Shown: positions 8,850 to 9,265 of the stretch, one piece after another
How the letters are laid out: each line of letters opens with the position of its first letter
How positions within the stretch are numbered: the stretch's first letter is position 1
From: Patescibacteria group bacterium
GTDB taxonomy: Bacteria > Patescibacteriota > Patescibacteriia > 2-12-FULL-60-25
Assembly: GCA_028715505.1 (NCBI GenBank)
Contig: JAQURS010000003.1
Location: 1 to 50,409, forward strand
Reading direction: 5' to 3'
Length of the DNA stretch: 50,409 bases
Translations under genes and position numbers: made by a program
The notes under the pieces: model-generated
Database searches by the model: none
Told to the model about the DNA's origin: nothing
Seen by the model: only the letters and a program-made list of their open reading frames with translations

Positions 8850-8862
8850 GCGCCCTTAGCTC
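8850..8862 (+). repeat. Copy of the tRNA-Arg 5' end
   Basis: GCGCCCTTAGCTC is identical to the first 13 bases of the tRNA at 8897-8909. It runs directly into a palindrome of the CCGGCC-TTCGCC family (8861-8886), so it looks like the stump of a second tRNA copy. Confidence 0.6.
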
Positions 8863-8896
8863 CGGCCTTCGCCGAGGCTTCGGCCGGTTACCACAA

Positions 8897-8971
8897 GCGC
8901 CCTTAGCTCAACGGATAGAGCGCCGGTCTTCGGAACCGGTGATGGGGGTTCGATTCCCTCAGGGCGCACCA
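8897..8971 (+). tRNA. tRNA-Arg(UCG) with encoded CCA
   Basis: Cloverleaf: acceptor GCGCCCT/AGGGCGC, D stem GCTC/GAGC, anticodon stem CCGGT/ACCGG with loop CTTCGGA (anticodon TCG, reading CGA), T stem GGGGG/CCCTC around TTCGATT, discriminator A and CCA at 8969-8971. It is followed at once by a terminator (8975-9001). Copies of both ends lie nearby: the 5' 13 bases at 8850-8862 and the 3' end from the T-loop on at 9119-9141. Confidence 0.95.
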
Positions 8972-8974
8972 CGT

Positions 8975-9001
8975 AAAAAACTCGGCTTGACCGAGTTTTT
9001 T
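8975..9001 (+). terminator. tRNA-Arg terminator
   Basis: AAAAAACTCGG-cttga-CCGAGTTTTTT, four bases after the CCA end. Confidence 0.85.
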
Positions 9002-9027
9002 AAACAAACAACATAGTTAACTAAAGA

Positions 9028-9123
9028 GAATCGAACGTGAAGGGGTAGGGAAACGGGAGTTTCCCTTGGCGGAAGTATTGAAACCGAAGGGTTTCAAAAG
9101 GAACGGAGTGACGTGTGAGATTC
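9028..9123 (+). ncRNA. Branched structured element linked to the tRNA 3' end copy
   Basis: Outer stem GAATC-ga-ACGT (9028-9038) pairs with ACGT-gtga-GATTC (9111-9123). Inside are two clean hairpins: GGGAAAC-ggga-GTTTCCC (9048-9065) and GAAACC-gaag-GGTTTC (9080-9095). The right arm of the outer stem is the start of the copied tRNA 3' end. The unit therefore reads as a three-way-junction RNA or DNA structure ending in a tRNA 3' end, and is followed by its own terminator. No ORF. Could be a small mobile unit targeting tRNA genes, a structured RNA, or a recombination site; no known family recognised. Confidence 0.5.
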
Positions 9124-9148
9124 CCTCAGGGCGCACCACGTAAAAAAC
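9119..9148 (+). repeat. 30-bp direct repeat of the tRNA-Arg 3' end (att-like)
   Basis: GATTCCCTCAGGGCGCACCA plus ACGTAAAAAAC, identical to 8952-8981. Identity starts inside the T-loop and runs through CCA into the terminator A-tract. Repeats that begin in the T arm are what tyrosine-integrase elements leave at tRNA genes. The spacing of 167 bases is far too short for an autonomous element. Confidence 0.7.
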
Positions 9149-9172
9149 CGCTTTAGTTAATGGCGGTTTTTT
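9142..9172 (+). terminator. Terminator after the tRNA 3' end copy
   Basis: AAAAAACCGC-11nt-GCGGTTTTTT. A nested hairpin GCCCCGT/ACGGGGC with inner CCCGAC/GTCGGG follows at 9177-9211. Confidence 0.75.
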
Positions 9173-9265
9173 ACGTGCCCCGTGACCCGACTTTGTCGGG
9201 TTTTACGGGGCAAGTTGCTAGTAAGCGGTTTCACGTGGCGCCGCCAAGTTAAGATGGCGCCGCCA

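Follow-up and report, generated by a model that had tools for sequence, protein, structure and literature searches.

What lies between the tRNA-Arg(TCG) gene of the window (the whole 50,409-nt stretch of DNA analysed here, from genome G000, 1.07 Mb in 28 contigs) and a second, exact copy of its own 3' end? The intervening unit spans about 170 bp and carries no gene. A duplicated tRNA end of this sort might be left by a decayed tandem tRNA, belong to a host RNA, or mark an insertion, and the structure of the unit, its relatives and the loci that lack it were used to decide between these readings.

A duplicated tRNA end around a folded core

All window features are on the + strand. The host gene, tRNA-Arg(TCG), lies at 8897..8971 (ARAGORN; Rfam tRNA, 71 bits), and nt 53-66 of its T-arm (8948-8961) are the source copied in both arms of the unit. 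A 30-bp direct repeat covering tRNA nt 57-76, with the CCA, and the start of the terminator occurs at 8952..8981 and again at 9119..9148; the copies are 100% identical and 167 bases apart, far beyond chance. The tRNA is followed by a terminator hairpin (8974..9002, an inverted repeat), which belongs to the regenerated tRNA and is brought by the inserted unit. The left arm (9025..9036) is an inverted copy of the host T-arm, recognised as an inverted repeat and by the family-wide profile: AGAGAATCGAAC corresponds in inverted orientation to GTTCGATTCCCT (8948-8959), with 11 of 12 positions matching. Then comes the core (9037..9114; covariance-model match of 79.5 bits, supported by covariation) with three hairpins. 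Hairpin 1 (9048..9065) has a GNNA-type loop, GGGA, and hairpin 2 (9078..9097) reads TTGAAACC-GAAG-GGTTTCAA, both identified by the fold and by the loops of the family. Hairpin 3 (9103..9109) is a GNA triloop, AC-GGA-GT, read directly and supported by compensatory change in the family; it is GC-GNA-GC in many relatives. The right arm (9115..9142) consists of GTGA, the copy of tRNA nt 57-76 and the next bases, and represents the displaced original 3' end. The original tRNA terminator, a perfect 15-bp hairpin (9137..9177, inverted repeat), follows. As a single strand, the window element folds better than shuffled sequences (z -3.7).

A sequence-only reading of this locus had reported the exact 30-bp repeat and a terminator belonging to the copy, and both claims held. 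Its outer stem held in part, being weak in the window copy and strong in relatives, and so did its two internal hairpins, since the third mini-hairpin was overlooked. The inverted, host-matched left arm was absent from that reading and was found only in the follow-up. It had also noted that the 13 bases at the start of the tRNA recur upstream. They do (8850-8862), but they belong to another, small insertion bordering the tRNA on its 5' side (8850..8896), in which these bases are repeated together with a GC-rich hairpin. This 47-bp insertion is probably not part of the element. It was not seen upstream of tRNA-Arg in congeners, and a 22-bp probe taken from it matched the genome, weakly, at just one other place. 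A second repeat family, CACGTAAAAAACCGC...GTTTTTTACGTGCCCCGTG...ACGGGGCAAG...GCGGTTTCACGTGGC, was observed after the element (9137-9265), and its homologues lie 3' of tRNA-Arg in congener G008 and in G001.

A structured family with host-matched arms

The window unit is one member of a widespread structured family, of which 112 distinct copies were examined. Generally, the element comprises about 110-150 bases, is gene-free and rich in hairpins, and lies just 3' of tRNA genes in many Patescibacteria, which are tiny and uncultured. The sequence-only reading had treated a single locus, whereas G000 contains three further copies, located behind tRNA-Ser(GGA) by sequence search and behind tRNA-Tyr by the covariance model. 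With the covariance model, copies were found in 15 of the 41 genomes of the same family, 17 of them in G037 alone. A model rebuilt from 49 copies detected the element in at least 63 of the 381 genomes searched in the class and, in the phylum search, in at least 28 of 380 genomes, 16 of the 28 being outside the class; with no more than nine candidates scored per genome, these class and phylum counts are lower bounds. Named records with close copies are chiefly Candidatus Magasanikbacteria and other Patescibacteria. One close variant, used to query viral contigs and phage genomes, gave no match.

At the gathering score, Rfam recognised only the tRNA in the window and gave no match for the element, and at permissive E-values nothing rose above the cut-off within the element (window copy, L169 and five further loci). 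A known structured RNA family was rejected on this ground. A Group II intron domain above the Rfam cut-off was observed in G095 (L163:351-456), about 1 kb upstream of an element-bearing tRNA-Ile.

The fold of the family is shown by covariation. Among 49 copies, standard pairs fill 94.3% of the paired cells, and 31 of the 32 pairs vary on both sides; in 65 further class-level copies, a few of which are shared with the first set, the values are 92.5% and 30 of 32. None of 500 shuffles reached the observed covariation score in either set. Fitting the alignments to the model biases them towards pairing; still, slid controls reached only 38-58%. The loop of hairpin 1 is usually GNNA, and hairpin 3 is often a GC stem capped by a GNA triloop. 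G-U pairs outnumber A-C pairs 58:11 in the inner hairpins, and therefore it is the tRNA-sense strand that folds. This bias fits a single-stranded form; it does not demonstrate recombination, and a single-stranded substrate remains an inference. Meanwhile, G-U makes up 2.8% of the standard pairs of the element as against 5.7% in the acceptor stems of the tRNAs at these loci (Fisher p = 9e-6), which could be taken as a modest sign for DNA over RNA.

A folded core of about 75-125 nt stands between two arms that resemble the host, whose match to the host tRNA was profiled in 84 copies aligned on host tRNA numbering. The right arm is a direct copy of the host: it begins at nt 53 and reaches the CCA, often extending beyond, and on average matches from about nt 59/60 to 76 and further. 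At nt 55-56, hosts carry TC and most right arms carry GA. The left arm is inverted and matches host nt 53-66, with an abrupt edge at 53 and a taper past 66. When the left arms were anchored without reference to the host, they agreed with their own host at 566 of 840 variable positions, compared with 354 +/- 12 when the hosts are permuted (maximum 393 in 2000 permutations). The left arm might be regarded as merely the pairing partner of the right arm, but where host and right arm disagree it sides with the host (22:1 at nt 57, 25:3 at nt 59 and 10:0 at nt 60), and this possibility was rejected.

The match to the host is thus shown, with some reservations. The model selects for pairing between left and right arms and not for a match to the host, indels near nt 57-59 blur individual positions, and copies from related genomes are not independent. 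Individual left arms also match poorly past nt 62, as behind tRNA-Glu in G076 (where the copies follow tRNA-His and tRNA-Glu) and tRNA-Pro in G144. In G006, cores 95% identical follow tRNA-Ala and tRNA-Arg while their arms differ, each matching the T-stem of its own host, although the Arg arm deviates at nt 57-58. Since near-identical cores behind different tRNAs have different left arms, the arms appear to be re-made at each site.

Targets, empty sites and rival explanations

A tRNA ends no more than 150 nt upstream in 91 of the 112 copies, with 19 amino-acid kinds represented, and a tRNA-Asn case was also seen; most copies without a nearby upstream tRNA follow tRNA fragments. The upstream tRNA is complete, usually with a terminator before the left arm. 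No genes were found between terminator and left arm in the copies read, and no autonomous version carrying genes there was seen. Three copies follow the 3' end of tmRNA (L168, L177 and L188, by sequence reading), and three lie in the 5' part of a gene, on its antisense strand (L057, L171 and L178), which we take to be lepA from reading the L099 protein and the DNA. The lepA target, GGTCAATATGGGC, is T-arm-like. In two of the lepA copies (L171 and L178), the right arm has GA where the target has TC (GGTC to GGGA and GATC to GAGA); this equals the change at tRNA nt 55-56, and GA is the reverse complement of TC. Because copies occur at tmRNA and lepA, a function confined to tRNA biology is unlikely.

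The same tRNA occurs with and without the unit within the genus. In congener G008, tRNA-Arg(TCG) is directly followed by a homologue of the right flank of the window unit, including the terminator at 9137-9177, and appears to be an empty site. The unit is also missing at tRNA-Arg(TCG) in congeners G002, G003 and G004, while G007 has a different copy there. Near-identical units stand in tandem in G216 and G292, and in 17 of 81 copies a stretch of 20-90 nt that directly follows the tRNA has a similar counterpart beyond the element. In the tRNA-Ser array of G000, the order is unit, 2-kb insert, unit and original terminator, all joined at one point of the T-arm; read in this order, the array might record successive insertions at the tRNA, the newest being nearest to it. 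On this evidence, which is only comparative, the element appears to be mobile; movement itself was not observed.

Other inserts occupy the same places. The 2-kb insert between the element copies of the G000 array (contig 2, L101:6700-8900) has one gene, oriented opposite to the tRNA, whose 490-aa product has no Pfam or NCBIfam match; carrying this gene of an unknown family, the insert was rejected as a form of the element. In G037 (contig 1, ~1040.9-1079.5 kb; L220, L221 and L097), a 38-kb prophage lies between tRNA-Ser(TGA) and a copy of the element. It has its own integrase, which we take to be serine-type from our reading of its sequence, and it too was rejected as a form of the element.

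These observations bear on the two readings left by the sequence-only work. Its inference that a minimal non-coding unit inserted at a tRNA 3' end and regenerates it is supported: the search it proposed, for a three-stem element with a matching 3'-end copy behind other tRNAs, was positive in dozens of genomes, and compensatory change is present throughout the stems. An ordinary decayed tandem tRNA at homologous loci, which would have refuted it, was not borne out; this explanation is rejected, as the cores show nothing of a tRNA body, the unit is missing in congeners, and lepA and tmRNA also harbour copies. Its alternative, an RNA bearing a tRNA tail, is less likely, yet not excluded.

In a related explanation, the element would be a fixed host RNA, a structured 3' tail that regulates or protects tRNA ends and whose arms co-evolve with the tRNA. 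The strong structure, the preference for tRNA loci and the complementarity to the T-arm speak for it. However, presence and absence at one tRNA within a genus largely refutes it, and the sporadic occurrence among genomes, the lepA antisense and tandem copies, and the terminator upstream of the element also count against it. We consider it very unlikely.

A second rival is a miniature satellite of a tRNA-targeting tyrosine integrase, in which a small circle with a tRNA 3' end recombines at the T-arm to give attL and attR. In its favour, the target is the T-arm, the 3' end is regenerated and the original fragment displaced, tmRNA is also hit, and unrelated inserts, a prophage included, use the same tRNA ends. 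Against it, the right junction usually has a T-loop reading GTGARA and not GTTCRA, so that attL and attR would have no shared overlap sequence. In addition, a fixed circle cannot give near-identical cores with re-matched inverted arms at different tRNAs; a left arm re-matched after a jump would tell against this rival, and this is what is seen at 95% core identity. Finally, no integrase is linked to the element. The satellite explanation is therefore unlikely.

No mobilising enzyme was found. Tyrosine recombinases number one each in G233, G230, G291 and G092, and the three PF00589 matches of G000 are a Xer-like protein, a 402-aa phage type and a fragment. The gene of the 402-aa phage-type integrase adjoins tRNA-Met just outside the window (contig 3, 53.3-54.6 kb; L218), and in this bacterial family tRNA-Arg(TCT) regularly comes after the gene of a Xer-like recombinase (L105, L106, L108, L111 and L117). 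No integron integrase was found in G000, and the 270-aa proteins tested in other genomes fell below the TIGR02249 cut-off; a dedicated 270-aa recombinase was set aside, showing no clear correlation with the copies. Y1 transposase had no match in G000, G010, G144, G185 and G274, although a helper elsewhere is not excluded. Reverse transcriptase (RT) was not detected in the copy-rich genomes G000, G144, G274, G233 and G185, which have up to nine copies. The presence of RT and Y1 transposase in the same genome is thus not required, both being undetected in copy-rich genomes.

The third rival, a SINE-like retroelement, depends on such an RT: the core would be transcribed, a nick in the T-arm would prime reverse transcription, and end joining with snap-back would yield the inverted arm and a duplication of variable length. 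The fixed edge at nt 53, the variable-length target duplication and the single functional strand agree with it, and RT is commoner in carriers (27 of 42) than in genomes without a match (11 of 33), a difference confounded by phylogeny, which was not controlled. However, RT is undetected in the copy-rich genomes named above, where a lost helper or one from another cell is possible; a terminator lies between tRNA and core and leaves little space for a promoter; and G-U pairs are rarer than in tRNA stems. We consider the SINE-like explanation unlikely.

Proposed mechanism and known systems

We favour a non-coding, non-autonomous mobile element that acts as a folded single strand, probably of DNA, and is moved in trans, and we put this reading at a probability of roughly 0.6. 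The functional form would be the self-folded tRNA-sense strand, single-stranded DNA being more likely than RNA; this form is inferred. Insertion would take place at the T-arm with its edge at nt 52|53 and would duplicate the downstream target, and within this proposal the tRNA therefore always retains a complete 3' end. The inverted left arm, whose derivation from the target is likewise an inference, would be made during insertion. As one untested example, the folded core strand may prime synthesis with its free 3' end and copy the neighbouring target strand from nt 53; this would explain why there is a common edge at nt 53 whereas the far edge is ragged. The left arm is unlikely to have arisen by snap-back at the terminator palindrome, because the inverted copy contains neither the acceptor end nor the CCA and tapers past nt 66. 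The trans-acting enzyme is also only inferred, and may be a host Xer-type recombinase or an enzyme of a helper element.

A bolder reading, which we hold as readily doubted as believed, is that of a new class of mobile element in which each insertion copies target nt 53-66 in inverted orientation, the copy forming half of the element's terminal stem. If so, one core could use the T-arms of all kinds of tRNA, tmRNA and T-arm-like sites while leaving the tRNA unharmed. This would be a route of transposition in which the target supplies the sequence for an end of the element, whereas att sites and terminal repeats are fixed, and the tRNA T-arm would be a general landing pad across Patescibacteria, with their ~1-Mb genomes. 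It raises the question of which enzyme joins both hairpin ends to one nucleotide of a tRNA gene. The open-access literature searched holds no published description of the element; one may exist outside it, and subject to this reservation the element is likely to be of an undescribed kind.

Among known systems, the tRNA and tmRNA islands of the Islander type (PMC4383910) likewise insert at these genes, regenerate the 3' end and displace the original fragment. In contrast to such tyrosine-integrase islands, the element has neither an integrase nor any other gene, carries an inverted host-matched arm, shares no overlap between its junctions, and uses many kinds of tRNA within one genome. Y1 (IS200-like) transposases move REP/REPIN, PATE and further palindromic repeats in trans, and these repeats are short, non-coding and defined by hairpins. 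The element is also short, non-coding and hairpin-defined; however, it is specific for the T-arm, and Y1 transposase is undetected in several copy-rich genomes. With SINEs, which are not known in bacteria, it shares a structured non-coding unit, a fixed nick site and a variable-length target duplication, but it has no A-tail, and RT is undetected in several copy-rich genomes. The integron attC site resembles it as a folded recombination-site-like hairpin with an imperfect outer stem and a variable tip, and units of the element, like integron cassettes, may stand in tandem behind a fixed site. However, the arms of the element read ..TTYGAAC and GTGARAT or GTTCRAN, not RYYYAAC...GTTRRRY with a G|TT crossover; and unlike an integron cassette, the element has no gene, takes the T-arm of many tRNAs as its target, and has a left arm re-matched to each of them.
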